In this document: piece by piece, positions 6,221 through 39,852 of the stretch | Layout: each line of letters begins with the position of its first letter | Position numbering within the stretch: the first letter of the stretch is position 1 | Origin: Clostridia bacterium | GTDB lineage: Bacteria > Bacillota > Clostridia > Oscillospirales > CAG-272 | Reading direction: 5' to 3' | Length of the DNA stretch: 42,338 bases | NCBI GenBank assembly: GCA_017467815.1 | Contig: JAFUKI010000165.1 | Span: forward strand, 1-42,338 | Notes under the pieces: model-generated | Database searches by the model: none | What the model was told of the DNA's origin: nothing | The model's input: only the letters and a program-made list of their open reading frames with translations | Position numbers and translations under genes: made by a program

Positions 6221-7450
6221 TTACTTGCCGTGGTACATTCTTTTAACCTTTTCAAATACTTCATCCGGGATTTCGGGATCGCCGTAGATATTGTTGGGGA
6301 TATACTGATCACCTGCAATTTCCGGTAAGCAGCAGCGTGTATCGTTACGTTAAGGATCACGTTCTGCCTTGTTGCGCAGGTTGGGAAGCTTGATGGGCTT
6401 GTTGCCTTCTGTGATGGAAACAAAGCCGAGGGTACCGGGGATGCACATTTCCACAGCACTGTATACGTCAATGGAGCGTTCTCTTGCTACTTCGTCACCG
6501 AGAATGCTGCGGATGAAATAGTGGGTGGTGTAGAAGTCGCCGCCGCCATGACCGGAAGCCTTGCCTTCTTCGATAACGTGCTCGGGCAGATAGGATTCAC
6601 CCTTACCGCCGCCGTTTTTGCCAGGTTCTTCCACATATACATCCAGCTTGTCGCCCAGATCCTTCATAGCACCGAGGGTACCGTTCAGCTGATAGTTGGA
6701 AACATGGGTGGTGTGCTTCATGTTGAAATGCAGGCTCTTGAACATCGCGCCGTTTTCCAGAGTGATGATCTCCATACCCAGCGTACCGGAAGCCGTACCC
6801 AGTTCGCGCATGAAGGGCATATTGGGTGTTTCAAAACCGGTAACCTGCACGGGACGCAGACCGGTCATGTACAGAATGGGACCGATGGAGTGGGTGCAGT
6901 AGAACGTGGAGGGCATCAGATTCCGCCAGTGGTTGCGGATACCGTATGTAATACTGGGCCAGATGGAGGAACAGTCGTGAACGTATTCACCTTCGGCATA
7001 CATCAGTTCACCGATGTCACCGCGGCGATAACGCTGACGCATTTCCCAGCGGATGGGGGTAAAGCAGTAGTTTTCCGCATAGGCATAAATCTTGCCGGTG
7101 CGTTCCACACATTCGATCAGTTCAACCGCTTCCTTCATGGTGGCGCAGGTCAGACATTCGGTCATAACATGACGTCCGCTGTCCATCACGCGAATAGCAT
7201 AAGGAACGTGTTCGTTGGCATAGTTGGCAAGAATAACCGCATCCATATCATGCTGAATGAATTCATCAAAAGAATCATAGAAGGCAACATTGCCCAGACC
7301 GCGCTGATCGGCGTGCGCTTTGCAGTCATCAAGCAGTGCCTTGTTGAAATCACAGATTGCCACAAGTTCAACACAGGGGTCTTCAAGAGAAGAGTTAATG
7401 AAAGTACTGCCTCGTCTGGCACCCATTACGCCTACTTTTACCTTTTCCAT
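6221..7450 (-). pseudogene. Gfo/Idh/MocA-family oxidoreductase interrupted by an in-frame TAA
   Basis: The N-terminal Rossmann domain (VKVGVMGARRGSTFI) and the sugar-oxidoreductase-like C-terminal domain mark an NAD(P)-dependent Gfo/Idh/MocA protein, a family acting on sugars, inositols and relatives. Translation from ATG 7450 (GAGAGG upstream) stops after 366 residues at TAA 6352-6350. The same frame then continues for 42 codons of protein-like sequence (from RNDTRCCLPEIAGDQYIPNN to EVFEKVKRMYHGK) and ends at TAA 6223-6221, for about 409 positions in all. One base change is enough to explain the interruption. The usual EKP motif with its catalytic Lys reads ECLTC at residues 98-102, so the Lys is absent. 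The product may be a truncated but folded protein, a pseudogene or an assembly error. Confidence 0.75.
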
Positions 7451-27979: not shown

Positions 27980-28519
27980 ATGAAAATATTGATCGCCTCC
28001 GACCTGCACGGTTCTGCCTGCTATACCAGAATGCTGGTGGACAATTTTCTGGCATCCGGTGCGGAACTGCTTGTCCTGCTGGGTGATATCCTGTATCACG
28101 GACCGCGCAACGATCTTCCAAGAGAATATGCGCCGAAAGCTGTGATTGAACTGCTGAATCCTCTGGCAGACAGGATCATCGCCGTGAGAGGAAACTGTGA
28201 ATCCGAAGTGGATCAGATGGTTCTGCAGTTTCCCGTAACTTCCGATTACGGCACGGTCTTTGCGGACGGTATGAAAATGTATCTGTCTCACGGCCACAGA
28301 GAGGTTCCCAAAATGCCCTCCGGCTCGATATATCTGACAGGTCATACCCACGTACCCCTGAAGGAAGATTGGGAAAACGGCTGTGTCCATCTGAATCCGG
28401 GTTCTGTTTCCATCCCTAAGGAGAATAGTCCTCACAGCTTCCTGATGTACGAAAACGGTGTATTCTCCTGGCGCAGAGTCAGAAACAATAAAGAATATAT
28501 GCAGTATGTCATCGGATGA
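27980..28519 (+). CDS. YfcE-like metallophosphodiesterase
   Basis: The protein has 179 residues with every calcineurin-like motif: SDLHG (Asp8, His10), LGDILYHGPRND, RGNCE, SHGHRE and TGHTHVP. YfcE of E. coli hydrolyses phosphodiesters with manganese; its natural substrate is unclear. The ATG at 27980 has GGGAG upstream, and the gene is probably co-transcribed with the sugar isomerase. Confidence 0.9.
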   Translation: MKILIASDLHGSACYTRMLVDNFLASGAELLVLLGDILYHGPRNDLPREYAPKAVIELLNPLADRIIAVRGNCESEVDQMVLQFPVTSDYGTVFADGMKMYLSHGHREVPKMPSGSIYLTGHTHVPLKEDWENGCVHLNPGSVSIPKENSPHSFLMYENGVFSWRRVRNNKEYMQYVIG

Positions 28520-28572
28520 TCGGTATATTGCCTGACCCTGACCACGGAAGCAACATTTATTATGCAGAAAAC

Positions 28573-28613
28573 AATGGGATCATGGTAGAATAGAAATGTT
28601 CCATGATCCCATT
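28573..28613. repeat. Perfect 13-bp inverted repeat ahead of the unclassified glycosidase
   Basis: AATGGGATCATGG (28573-28585) and CCATGATCCCATT (28601-28613) enclose 15 nt that contain a TAGAAT box. No T-run follows on the plus strand. It could be a factor-dependent terminator for the YfcE gene or an operator for the gene starting at 28647. Confidence 0.6.
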
Positions 28614-28646
28614 TCCCAATACGCAAAAGTTACTGAGAGGTAATCC

Positions 28647-30575
28647 ATGTATCTATATTCCATAAACCGACTGCTCAGCGAAAATTTTGACGAAATTGTA
28701 CAGGACGTCAGAGAACAAGTGGAACAAGGCGTTGCTACTGTGCCGTTGTTTCATATGTCTCTCGTACCGGAAGGGAATCCCGTGTACGACAAAGCATCCC
28801 ATATGTGTGAACTGTACGGCAGATTCAGAGATGCACTGAAACCCTACGGCATCAATCCGGGGATCCTGGTCCAATCCAGCCTCGGTCACGGATATGCTCT
28901 TGTCCCCAATCCCTTTCAGAAGTATGTGAATCTGTCGAACGGCAAGGAAATATTCTGCTGCTGCCCCGAGGATCCGGCATATATTGAGCATTTTTCCGGT
29001 GTCATGAAACAGCTTGCCATGGAACACCCGGCAGCTATTATGCTGGACGACGATTTCCGTATGACCGTACGGGATGGCCGCGGATGTGCCTGTCCAAGAC
29101 ATATGAAATTGTTCAATGAACGGACAGGTCTGAATATGACCAGGGAAGAACTTTGGGAATACATAAAATCCCATCCCTACGGCGATCCCATCACAGTGCA
29201 GTATCTGGAAACCCAGACAGGTTCTCTGGTAAAAGCAGCAGCCGCATTCCGCGCAGCTATCGACAGCGTGGATCCGACCATTCAGGGTATCAACTGTACC
29301 AGTGGACCGGAATGTGATTCCGTAATTTATACCAATCCGATTTTTGCCGGCAAGGGCAATCCTACCATTGTACGTGTACCCAATGGCAGCTACGCTCCTT
29401 TTTCCACCCGTTATTTCTCAGGCTGTATTAATATGGGTGCCAGAACCGCCGCAAAATTGAAAAAACACGGCATTGATGTCGTACTGGCAGAAACGGATAC
29501 CATTCCGTGGAACCGTTACGGCAAAAGCGCGCGATATCTTCATGCCCAATTCTCGGCATCCTTGGCGGAAGGTATGCAGGGAGCAAAGCACTGGCTGTCC
29601 AGACCAAGTATCGGCGAACAGGCCAGCGGCAGAGCCTACCGAAAGATTCTGTCTGAACATCGTAAATTCTACGAAAAACTGGCGGAATACGGACAGAATA
29701 TCAAATGGGTCGGTATCAACTCTCTGTCCCTTGAAAAAGGGTATACCGACTATAACCTGCCAGCCTATTATTTTGACTGCAACGAATGGATATCCTATCT
29801 CTTTGACCGTATAGGTATCCCCTTCTACTTCTCTGAGAACATGGAGGGAACCACCTTCGTGAACGACAGGATCATCGAATACCTGACGGACGACCAGATA
29901 GAACAGCTTTTTGAAACGTCTGTATTCTTCGATAATAAGACCGCAGAGGCTGTAATCAGTAGAGGTTTCGGTGATCGACTGGGCATCGACATGACGGACT
30001 GGGATCTTGGAAAAATATCTAATGAAGTATTCGGCGACGTAAAAGGTCCTATCTGTACCAAGCAGAAAAATGCCAAGCGCATCATTGTCAGCGATGATAG
30101 TGTAGAAACCCTTTCCTATAATTTCGTCTTAGAAAACGGTTGCAGAAAACTCCTGTCCCCTGCCGTAACCGTGAAGGAAAACAACGGAAAGTTGGCTGTG
30201 GCATACTGCGGTACCCCAGTGGCGATCTTTGATTATACGGAGGGATTTGCATTCCTGAACGAAACCAGAAAGAAGCAGTTCATATCTCTCCTGAAGCGTG
30301 CCGGCTGTCTGCCCGTGTATTATCCGGGAGACAATGAGATCTGCCTGCGCGCCGGTTACCTGCCGGACGGGAGAATGCTTGTGATGTCCGTCTGTATCGG
30401 TGTGGATCCCATGGATGAATACGATCTGTATCTGGAAAAGAAGCCGTCCTCTATCAGGATCCTGAACAGCGACGGAACGGAAACAGAAGTAGAATGGACA
30501 GAAAAAGAAGACGGGATGTATACGATAAAAGTAAGAGTGGAATGTATGTACCCGGTGGTGCTGCTGGTTGAATGA
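28647..30575 (+). CDS. Large cytoplasmic protein resembling an unclassified glycoside hydrolase
   Basis: The protein has 642 residues, with no signal peptide or transmembrane helix. Several segments look like beta-strand ends of a glycosidase TIM barrel: VPLFHMSLVPEGN, AIMLDDDFRM with three Asp, a Cys pair in CACPRH, VVLAETDTIPWNR with a Glu and Asp, and FYFSENMEG. A C-terminal part from about 480 (NAKRIIVSDDSVET, then VAIFDYTEGFAFLN) looks like a mixed alpha/beta domain. I cannot place it in a numbered GH family. It lies upstream of a LysR regulator and downstream of a sugar isomerase, which supports carbohydrate use. The ATG at 28647 has GAGAGGT upstream. Confidence 0.65.
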   Translation: MYLYSINRLLSENFDEIVQDVREQVEQGVATVPLFHMSLVPEGNPVYDKASHMCELYGRFRDALKPYGINPGILVQSSLGHGYALVPNPFQKYVNLSNGKEIFCCCPEDPAYIEHFSGVMKQLAMEHPAAIMLDDDFRMTVRDGRGCACPRHMKLFNERTGLNMTREELWEYIKSHPYGDPITVQYLETQTGSLVKAAAAFRAAIDSVDPTIQGINCTSGPECDSVIYTNPIFAGKGNPTIVRVPNGSYAPFSTRYFSGCINMGARTAAKLKKHGIDVVLAETDTIPWNRYGKSARYLHAQFSASLAEGMQGAKHWLSRPSIGEQASGRAYRKILSEHRKFYEKLAEYGQNIKWVGINSLSLEKGYTDYNLPAYYFDCNEWISYLFDRIGIPFYFSENMEGTTFVNDRIIEYLTDDQIEQLFETSVFFDNKTAEAVISRGFGDRLGIDMTDWDLGKISNEVFGDVKGPICTKQKNAKRIIVSDDSVETLSYNFVLENGCRKLLSPAVTVKENNGKLAVAYCGTPVAIFDYTEGFAFLNETRKKQFISLLKRAGCLPVYYPGDNEICLRAGYLPDGRMLVMSVCIGVDPMDEYDLYLEKKPSSIRILNSDGTETEVEWTEKEDGMYTIKVRVECMYPVVLLVE

Positions 30576-30637
30576 TCACTGGAACAGGCATGGATTTCGC
30601 CTGTATACCCTATATATATCAATAGGATGAGGACAAA

Positions 30638-36822: not shown

Positions 36823-38442
36823 ATGAAAATACAGTTTATCGGCGCAACCCACGAAGTAACGGGAAGCTGTACGCTCCTGGAAGTGAACAACAGATATTAT
36901 CTGGTGGACTGCGGTATGGAACAGGGGAAGGATGTTTTTCAAAATATCGTTTTGCCCATCCCGGCACCGCAGATCGAAGCTGTATTTGTGACCCATGCCC
37001 ACATCGACCATTCCGGTATGCTGCCCAAACTGTACAAAGACGGCTTCCGTGGAACGATCTACGCCACGGATGTAACCTGCGATCTGTGCAATATCATGCT
37101 CCGTGACTCGGCATATATCCAGGAGTCCGAAGCAAAATGGCGATCCCGCAAAGCAGAACGTGCCGGTCTTGAAACATGGGAACCGGTTTATACCATGCAG
37201 GACGCCCTCGGCGCAATCTCCCAGTTCCGCAGATGCAGTTACGGAGAAATCATTTACCCGGCGGAAGGGATCGAGCTTCGGTTTACCGATATCGGCCACC
37301 TTCTCGGTTCTGCCTGCATCGAACTATGGCTCACCGAAGGAAATACACAGAAGAAAATCGTATTCAGCGGAGACGTGGGAAATACGGGTCAGCGCATTAT
37401 CCGGGATCCCGGTCAGGTGGAAGAAACCGATTATCTGGTCATCGAATCCACCTACGGCAACCGCCTCCATGATGCCGACCGCGGGAATGTAGTCGGGGAA
37501 TTGGCAGAATACATCCAGAAGGCAATGGATCGCGGCGGAAACGTGGTGATTCCTTCCTTTGCCGTAGGACGTACCCAGGAAATGCTGTACGCCATCCGGG
37601 AAATCAAGCAGAACGGACTTGTAAAAGGACATGACCATTTCCCGGTATATGTGGACAGCCCCCTTGCCGCAGAAGCCGCCGCCATTTTCATGCAGTGTAA
37701 TCCCGTGTGCTTTGATGAAGAAACACTGGAACTGATCGACCGCGGCATCAATCCCATTTGGTTTGAAGATCTGCGCATATCGGTCACGTCCGAGGATTCC
37801 AAACAGATCAATTTCAATACCGAACCGAAGGTCATCATTTCCGCCAGCGGTATGTGCGAAGCGGGACGCATCCGCCACCATCTGAAGCATAACTTATGGA
37901 AGGAAAACAGCATTATCCTGTTCGTCGGTTATCAGGCAGAAGGTTCCCTTGGCAGACGGCTGCTGAATGGAGAAAAGTATGTCTCCCTGTTCGGGGAAGA
38001 TATTACCGTAAATGCGGAAATCTGCTCGCTCCACGGTACCAGCGGTCATGCAGACAGAGACGGACTAATCCGCTGGCTGAAAGGGTATACTAAGAAACCG
38101 GAGCTGGTATTTGTCAACCACGGCGATGACACAGCCTGCGAAGATTTCAAGAATCTGCTGACGGAAATGGGGTATCGTGCCGAAGCACCCTACAGCGGCA
38201 CGGAATACGACCTGACCACGGGCAGAATGACAATATATACCGAGGGAAAGACCATAGACAGAGTACAATCCTTCAAAGGAAACACCCGTGCGGAAATGAT
38301 CTACCGGGAACTGGTAGCCGAAGCGGAAAAACTGCTCACACTGGTGAAAGGCAGGAGAGGGAAAACCAACAAAGACAACGCCAAGCTCACTGCACAGATC
38401 AGAGAGCTTTGTGATAAATGGAAAAATTATAAAGGGGAATAA
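36823..38442 (+). CDS. MBL-fold beta-CASP RNA exonuclease-like protein
   Basis: The protein has 539 residues. Metallo-beta-lactamase motif THAHIDHSG gives His58, His60, Asp62 and His63; GHLLGSA and SGDVGNTG follow. The beta-CASP domain has DSPLAAEA and ISASGMCEAGRIRHHL, and the late RMMBL part has LHGTSGHAD. This is the Ysh1/CPSF-like group of bacterial RNA-processing enzymes, related to but distinct from RNase J. A predicted role is RNA cleavage in the cytoplasm. GGAGGTG precedes the ATG. It lies 2 bp before the LOG gene, so the two share a transcript. Confidence 0.88.
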   Translation: MKIQFIGATHEVTGSCTLLEVNNRYYLVDCGMEQGKDVFQNIVLPIPAPQIEAVFVTHAHIDHSGMLPKLYKDGFRGTIYATDVTCDLCNIMLRDSAYIQESEAKWRSRKAERAGLETWEPVYTMQDALGAISQFRRCSYGEIIYPAEGIELRFTDIGHLLGSACIELWLTEGNTQKKIVFSGDVGNTGQRIIRDPGQVEETDYLVIESTYGNRLHDADRGNVVGELAEYIQKAMDRGGNVVIPSFAVGRTQEMLYAIREIKQNGLVKGHDHFPVYVDSPLAAEAAAIFMQCNPVCFDEETLELIDRGINPIWFEDLRISVTSEDSKQINFNTEPKVIISASGMCEAGRIRHHLKHNLWKENSIILFVGYQAEGSLGRRLLNGEKYVSLFGEDITVNAEICSLHGTSGHADRDGLIRWLKGYTKKPELVFVNHGDDTACEDFKNLLTEMGYRAEAPYSGTEYDLTTGRMTIYTEGKTIDRVQSFKGNTRAEMIYRELVAEAEKLLTLVKGRRGKTNKDNAKLTAQIRELCDKWKNYKGE

Positions 38443-38444
38443 AA

Positions 38445-39026
38445 ATGAGAATATGCGTATACGGTGCAGCATCGCCCACAATCGACAAAGAATATTTTGA
38501 AAAAGTAGAATACATGGGCAGCGAAATGGCAAAGAGAGGTCACTCCCTGGTATTCGGCGGAGGCGGAAACGGACTGATGGGTGCAGCCGCAAGAGGTGTG
38601 CGTGCAGAAGGCGGCTATATCATGGGCGTTATTCCGAAATTTTTCGATGAAGAAAATGTAGAAGCCATCTGTGATTTCTGTGATGAACTGATTATGCCCG
38701 ATACCATGCGCCAGCGCAAGCAGATCATGGAAGACAATGCGGACGCCTTCATCGTAGTACCGGGCGGTATCGGCACTTACGAGGAATTCTTTGAGATTCT
38801 GACCCTGAAACAGCTTTGCCGCCACAATAAGCCCATCGCCATTTACAATATCAAAAATTATTACGCTGAGCTGATCGAAACCATGGAAAAAGCCATGTAA
38901 AAGAACTTCATCCGCGGCAACTGCCGTGAACTGTATATGGCAACGGACGATCTGGAAGAACTGTTTGCCTACGTGGAAGCTCCTGTACAGCCGATTCATA
39001 CCGTAAAGGAACTGAAAGACGGCTGA
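38445..39026 (+). pseudogene. LOG-family (TIGR00730) gene interrupted by an in-frame TAA
   Basis: The frame encodes a Rossmann-like LOG protein: CVYGAAS, VFGGGGNGLMGAAARG, then MRQRKQIMEDNADAFIVVPGGIGTYEE with the PGGxGTxxE motif at 106-114. The family releases the sugar phosphate from nucleoside 5'-monophosphates (cytokinin-type LOG in plants; in bacteria often a general nucleotide hydrolase). Translation from ATG 38445 ends after 151 residues at TAA 38898-38900. The same frame then continues for 41 codons of good family-like sequence (KNFIRGNCRELYMATDDLEEL, ending KELKDG) to TGA 39024-39026. The missing part forms the last helices of the family, so the short product is probably impaired. 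One substitution explains the stop. Confidence 0.8.
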
Positions 39027-39063: not shown

Positions 39064-39852
39064 ATGAAAAAACTCATTGCGTCCGATTACGACGGTACTC
39101 TGAATCAGGGTGGGATCCCGGAACATGTGGCTGAGGCTATAGAAAGATTCCGCGCAACAGGTCATCTGTTCGGCGTATCCACAGGACGGAGCAGAAGAGA
39201 CAGCTTTGAACTGTTCCGCGCAGAGGGCAGATTCACATTTGATTTTGTCATCGCCCTGAACGGTGCCCAGATATATGACGGGGAGGGGAATCTTCTGTTT
39301 GATGTACCCATCCAAATGGACACACCCGTCGGAAATACCACCCTTGCCAAAGCACTTGCTTACCGCATGGGAGAACTGGGCTGTACGTATATCGGCTTTT
39401 CCATCGGCAATACCAGGCAGTCCGTATCCCCGAAACAGGAGAACGGAAAAGTACGGTTTACAGCGGAAGAAGAACAGATCCTTTCCGACATGACAATATG
39501 CCATATGCTGAATACATTCCTGCCGGAAATTTCCATGGCGGAAAGGATTACCCAAACACTGCAGGAAGAATTCGGGACATATGTCAATCCCATGCAGAAC
39601 GGTGTGTGTATCGACATACCTGTCTGCGGAATGGACAAAGCGGTAGGTATTGCACGATATGCCGCCATGATGGGGGTTGAGGAGAACAATATCTGGACAG
39701 CAGGGGACAATTATAACGATATCCCCATGCTAAAACGCTACATCGGCTGTGCCATGGAATGCGGCTGTGATGCGGCTAAAGCGGAAGCGAAATACATCTG
39801 CCGGGATGTAGCGGATGTAGCGAAACTGGCTATGTCAGAAACCCAAAGATAA
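39064..39852 (+). CDS. Cof-type HAD phosphatase
   Basis: The protein has 262 residues. Motif I is SDYDGTL (Asp8, Asp10), motif II the Thr in STGRS, a cap of the C2 type lies near 85-185, and motif IV is TAGDNYNDIPML. Cof-type enzymes dephosphorylate sugar phosphates, pyridoxal phosphate or flavin nucleotides, and often accept several substrates. The ATG has AAAAGGA upstream. It is 37 bp after the broken LOG gene and 13 bp before the GH106-like gene, suggesting one transcript from the RNase promoter. Confidence 0.88.
   Translation: MKKLIASDYDGTLNQGGIPEHVAEAIERFRATGHLFGVSTGRSRRDSFELFRAEGRFTFDFVIALNGAQIYDGEGNLLFDVPIQMDTPVGNTTLAKALAYRMGELGCTYIGFSIGNTRQSVSPKQENGKVRFTAEEEQILSDMTICHMLNTFLPEISMAERITQTLQEEFGTYVNPMQNGVCIDIPVCGMDKAVGIARYAAMMGVEENNIWTAGDNYNDIPMLKRYIGCAMECGCDAAKAEAKYICRDVADVAKLAMSETQR

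Follow-up and report, generated by a model that had tools for sequence, protein, structure and literature searches.

A premature in-frame TAA in a LOG-family gene of a draft Clostridia genome, probably a single-base consensus error

The window, that is, the whole 42,338-nucleotide stretch of DNA that was analysed, is contig C156 of genome G000, a draft assembly of a Clostridia bacterium comprising 177 contigs and 2.99 Mb and estimated at 90.66% complete. Towards its right-hand end lies a gene of the LOG family that is interrupted by an in-frame TAA, and an oxidoreductase gene on the other strand, some 32 kb away, carries a companion lesion. The features concerned are given below, where the sister is the sister-species genome G017.

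7450-6221, minus strand: GFO/IDH/MocA oxidoreductase gene with the companion lesion; its homologous tail is 42 residues long
6352-6350, minus strand: premature in-frame TAA of the oxidoreductase gene; the sister codon encodes Tyr
36823-38442, plus strand: beta-CASP metallo-beta-lactamase nuclease gene, the intact upstream neighbour of the LOG gene, in synteny with the sister
38445-38900, plus strand: LOG-family (TIGR00730 / PF03641) gene up to the premature TAA, 151 aa
38898-38900, plus strand: premature in-frame TAA of the LOG gene; the sister codon encodes Glu, and a sense codon is found in 89 of 89 distinct homologous sequences
38901-39026, plus strand: LOG C-terminus, 41 in-frame codons followed by a normal TGA (39024-39026), with similarity to relatives kept
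39064-39852, plus strand: HAD-type hydrolase (PF08282) gene, the intact downstream neighbour of the LOG gene, in synteny with the sister

Translation of positions 38445 to 39026 gives 151 residues, the TAA and 41 further residues ahead of the TGA, or 193 codons in all. The 151-residue part retains the GGGxGLMG-like, MRQRK and PGGxGTxxE motifs. Scores against the family profiles place the protein in the LOG family. Adding the tail raises them, from 155.2 to 163.7 bits for TIGR00730 (cut-off 96.35) and from 107.3 to 121.2 bits for PF03641, with matches that extend to residues 178 and 176, respectively, of the 193. Since the TIGR00730 score increases with the tail and the match reaches residue 178, the 41 codons after the TAA can be read as the C-terminus of the same protein. 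This bears out the preliminary description, which had proposed a TAA followed by 41 codons of LOG C-terminus and a normal TGA; the gain in both profile scores and an intact gene in the sister agree with it. With the stop passed over, the predicted protein is a whole-length match to the LOG family (TIGR00730; PF03641, 'possible lysine decarboxylase'; cytokinin riboside 5'-monophosphate phosphoribohydrolase type), and solved LOG-type structures match it over at most residues 2-179. It differs from that family in that the assembled frame ends at residue 151 and in that the cytokinin-specific equivalog NF058542 scores 134.8 bits with the tail against a curated cut-off of 300; because of this low score, the substrate is left unassigned.

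Comparison with relatives indicates how isolated the stop is. Gene order is common to the window and the sister across most of 6.2-39.8 kb, at roughly 75-85% DNA identity, and the sister LOG protein is 94% identical across all 193 residues and has no stop. The LOG sequence on sister contig C1 is identical to that of MAG contig SVTO01000008.1 (isolate SIG697). None of 89 distinct homologues (91 loci, all covering the codon, the genome's own paralogue included) has a stop at the position of the TAA; the residues found there are Glu in 23, Lys in 22, Asp in 13 and others in 31. Relative to the sister, dN/dS is 0.037 before the stop and 0.107 after it, the numbers for the tail being small, and neither a second lesion nor a frameshift was seen in the LOG gene. 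Because the differences from the sister are mostly silent on both sides of the stop, the lesion must be either very young or not real. The TAA is best explained, from these sequence comparisons, as a one-base nonsense change private to this assembly, probably without any decoding function, in a gene that otherwise appears normal. An intact LOG paralogue encoding a 175-residue protein lies on contig C73 of the same genome; a TGA flagged inside it proved to be the ordinary end of that protein, which the alignment had overrun.

The companion lesion follows the same pattern. The sister oxidoreductase is 88% identical across 409 residues and has no stop, and the codon replaced by TAA encodes Tyr in 8, Trp in 12 and Phe in 1 of the 21 homologues that cover it, with a stop in none of them (24 of the 29 fetched homologous loci were compared). 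Against the sister, dN/dS is 0.107 before and 0.143 after the stop, again with small numbers for the tail. The lesion at 6350 had been likened to the one in the LOG gene, and it is indeed of the same type: an in-frame TAA, a homologous tail and no stop in the sister. A comparison with related strains had been proposed; the comparison with relatives made here finds both stops private to this assembly (0/89 for LOG and 0/21 for the oxidoreductase), with Glu and Tyr as the respective sister residues.

Conserved coding sequence beyond an in-frame stop is a feature shared with programmed read-through and stop reassignment, but neither explanation is supported here. General reassignment of TAA had been considered unlikely, and this judgment holds: TAA is the commonest normal terminator, ending 163 of 332 long ORFs (at least 250 aa) sampled from the genome as compared with 145 for TGA and 24 for TAG, and the residues lost differ, being Glu or mixed in the LOG gene and Tyr, Trp or Phe in the oxidoreductase. 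Programmed read-through is not supported either, the stop being kept in 0/89 LOG and 0/21 oxidoreductase homologues. Low-level natural read-through of TAA, which would yield some full-length protein in the strain, could draw on the conserved tails of both genes, though a recent mutation or an error would leave the tails equally conserved. Against it stand the lack of any homologue that keeps the stop, the different sister residues (Glu and Tyr), the role of TAA as the commonest normal stop, and the tRNA genes: no stop anticodon (TTA, CTA or TCA) occurs among the 45 decoded from 46 places, the 46th, on contig C64, being undecoded by ARAGORN. The tRNA set is incomplete, as is the genome, and contains no Phe (GAA) or Ile (GAT) tRNA among the 45. 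Rare read-through, one of the options left standing in the preliminary description, accordingly finds no support and is very improbable. The broader idea that the lineage tolerates scattered in-frame stops, with a few ribosomes passing them so that LOG and the similarly interrupted smc are still made in part at full length, is just as far-fetched. Real stops that ribosomes did pass would come as a surprise, but nothing here points in that direction. As an unrelated observation on the tRNA genes, the draft contains two copies of a tRNA-Leu(TAG)-tRNA-Gly(CCC) pair, at 5864-6025 on contig C61 and at 40114-40285 on contig C36.

Whether such lesions are in excess was assessed in a 685 kb sample of the genome (23% of it) and a 438 kb sample of the sister. 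For the orthologue comparison, alignments of at least 65% identity in which most differences fell at third codon positions were used. In the direction from the genome to the sister, 178 HSPs covering 55,935 codons contained two stops judged to lie inside genes, and these are the two window lesions; 9,286 of the codons are in the window and the other 46,649, elsewhere in the genome, hold no such lesion. The reverse direction (187 HSPs, 56,686 codons) gave no stop judged to lie inside a gene. These counts depend on calls made by eye. Apart from the two window lesions, all of the 28 stops listed for the genome were set aside in this way. Of these, 24 were no more than 30 codons away from where an alignment ended, and the other two, both on locus L158 (67 and 72 codons in), immediately preceded a Met that looks like the start of the following gene. 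The 21 stops listed for the sister were set aside likewise: 17 were similarly close (30 codons) to the end of an alignment, and four fell in a single antisense-looking frame of locus L220.

A stricter scan based on codon usage returned 28 candidates in the 685 kb of the genome and 16 in the 438 kb of the sister. Five of the 28 were judged to be lesions or possible lesions, in LOG, the oxidoreductase, smc, an InlB-type repeat protein and a candidate on contig C1 of the genome; the other 23 and all 16 from the sister were judged by eye to be gene boundaries or non-coding, some calls being uncertain (for example, L206 14973 in the genome and L226 8458 in the sister). The scan recovered 333 of 664 stops introduced in silico in the genome and 240 of 446 in the sister, a sensitivity of about 50%, and at that sensitivity no clear nonsense lesion was found in the 438 kb of the sister. 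The probability of finding no lesion in the sister at the rate of the genome is 0.04-0.08, which is borderline. Four homology-supported lesions and one candidate, as against none clear in the sister, therefore amount to a modest excess, and if the sample is fair the genome as a whole may hold perhaps a few dozen. Frameshifts are not in excess, with two split pairs in each of the two genomes. Two other gauges were abandoned: a loose codon-usage scan that lacked an opposite-strand check was too noisy (at least 184 raw candidates in the genome and at least 114 in other relatives), and ABC-transporter domains, with 62 matches in the genome and 51 in the sister, offered too few bases to be informative, no stop being found inside the matches listed.

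Two lesions in 42 kb had been called more than expected, and this stands in part. Given the lesion rate in the rest of the genome sample, a fixed stretch of 42 kb would contain two with p = 0.008-0.017; however, the window was singled out for its lesions, and a 3 Mb genome contains about 70 such stretches. A genome-wide scan had been suggested; on the 685 kb sample, scanning added the smc and InlB-type lesions and the modest excess over the sister. The 46,649 orthologous codons outside the window yielded none.

Beyond the window, the most telling of the lesions is in smc on contig C35 (L151 16283, minus strand), where one TAA lies inside a 1215-codon frame and the sister has Glu in a stop-free frame of 1207 codons. 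Nineteen relatives, counting the sister, matched the 247-residue stretch of smc that was searched; no stop was listed there for any of them, though some of their frames are partial. The InlB-type repeat protein, a large one on contig C150 (L112 4604, plus strand), contains a TAG, and the better-matching repeats of relatives have Glu or Thr in its place. The C1 candidate (L098 5284, plus strand) is a possible in-frame TAA in an unassigned protein, to which none of the 19 other genomes searched gave a match. Other relatives were covered by a first version of the scan at 79 loci (685 kb), which were picked for holding the LOG gene and are not a random sample; of 25 candidates, one was judged a clear lesion, an in-frame TAA in the beta-CASP nuclease gene upstream of LOG (L069 3602, plus strand; MAG of isolate RGIG8645).

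These observations leave two main readings of the LOG stop. The more probable one, at a probability of about 0.62, is a single-base consensus error, the wrong base presumably lying in the assembly and not in the cell. An error of this kind in a draft, metagenome-type assembly would create the TAA, which would then be one of perhaps a few dozen similar errors scattered through the genome. Sequencing error was among the options that the preliminary description had left standing, and it becomes the leading one here. It is favored by the confinement of the stop to this assembly, by the youth that the mostly silent differences imply for any lesion, by the 177-contig state of the draft, by the occurrence of the same kind of lesion in other genes without an excess of frameshifts, and by the fit of the four supported lesions to the G-to-T / C-to-A class considered below; against it count the small number of sites behind that last argument, the borderline excess over the sister and the absence of lesions from the 46,649 orthologous codons outside the window. 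The main rival is a real, very recent nonsense mutation, by which the strain, or a fraction of its cells, would make a 151-residue LOG protein as decay of the gene begins. Gene loss commonly begins with a one-base nonsense change, and LOG is dispensable in principle; since an intact paralogue is also present on contig C73, a real loss would be tolerated. The similar stop in the beta-CASP gene of one relative (L069) also speaks for a real allele. What weighs most heavily between the two is smc. Bacteria that lose it are severely impaired, which makes a true fixed nonsense allele there unlikely and favors a wrong base, and the presence of the same type of stop in smc, which is hard to accept in a living cell, shifts the balance for LOG towards error as well. 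The lack of any second lesion or frameshift in LOG and the mostly silent differences from the sister likewise tell against a real mutation. A recent real allele is thus possible, though clearly less probable than a consensus error.

A further variant of the real-mutation reading is a mutator history of the G-to-T type, in which failed repair of oxidized guanine would have raised the number of nonsense mutations in the lineage. In its favor, each of the four supported lesions is compatible with the G-to-T / C-to-A class, which makes up 38% of one-step nonsense opportunities. With four sites (0.38 to the fourth power is about 0.02) this is suggestive only, three being assigned by the sister codon and the InlB-type site by the Glu that the best-matching repeat in a relative carries, Thr also being frequent in those repeats. 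Amino-acid-changing differences from the sister lean the same way, 370 against 308 (p = 0.019), and in conserved surroundings 102 against 87 (p = 0.31). Since silent differences are skewed too, with the genome leaning towards A+T relative to the sister, the pooled test does not settle the question, and the directional excess is neither large nor clean. No match to the MutM family (TIGR00577) was found in the genome, which would fit a mutator, but the same is true of all 10 genomes of the genus searched, among them the sister, which showed no clear lesion; matches were present in 8 of 14 control genomes. Because it extends to all ten, the absence of MutM is not peculiar to this genome. MutY scores 295.9 bits, which exceeds the cut-off, and carries no stop; nine of the 10 genus genomes, this one included, have a stop-free MutY that scores above the cut-off. 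No loss of a repair gene peculiar to the genome was therefore found for MutY or MutM, and a mutator history, which had also been put forward at the outset, gains no support and is highly unlikely. The G-to-T / C-to-A class also arises from oxidative damage of DNA outside the cell (PMC12390751), and in that way fits a consensus error.

The closest known counterpart of a consensus error is the interruption of genes by sequencing or assembly errors in metagenome-assembled genomes, which likewise gives premature stops with conserved flanks in unrelated, scattered genes. Truncated predicted proteins serve as an error measure for such genomes (IDEEL; PMC6785717). That source concerns indels of long-read assemblies, whereas here single bases are substituted and frameshifts show no excess. 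Programmed read-through and stop reassignment differ from the present case in that here the stop is not kept, no single residue is specified, no decoded tRNA matches and TAA is a normal terminator. The LOG stop itself carries little biological weight; it serves as a warning that single-base nonsense errors in draft metagenome assemblies can mimic pseudogenes or recoding. Such errors can be suspected cheaply when a close sister species is compared and a gene that can hardly be dispensed with shows the same lesion.

Two minor observations concern the surroundings of the LOG gene. The beta-CASP nuclease at 36823-38442, whose gene adjoins LOG in the sister as well, gives strong matches that fall below the cut-offs of NF045584 (382 of 800 bits) and of the archaeal aCPSF1 family TIGR03675 (294 of 580 bits). 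Further upstream, about 2.1 kb of the window (28518-30625), including a 642-aa ORF at 28647-30575, is absent at the equivalent place of the sister contig.
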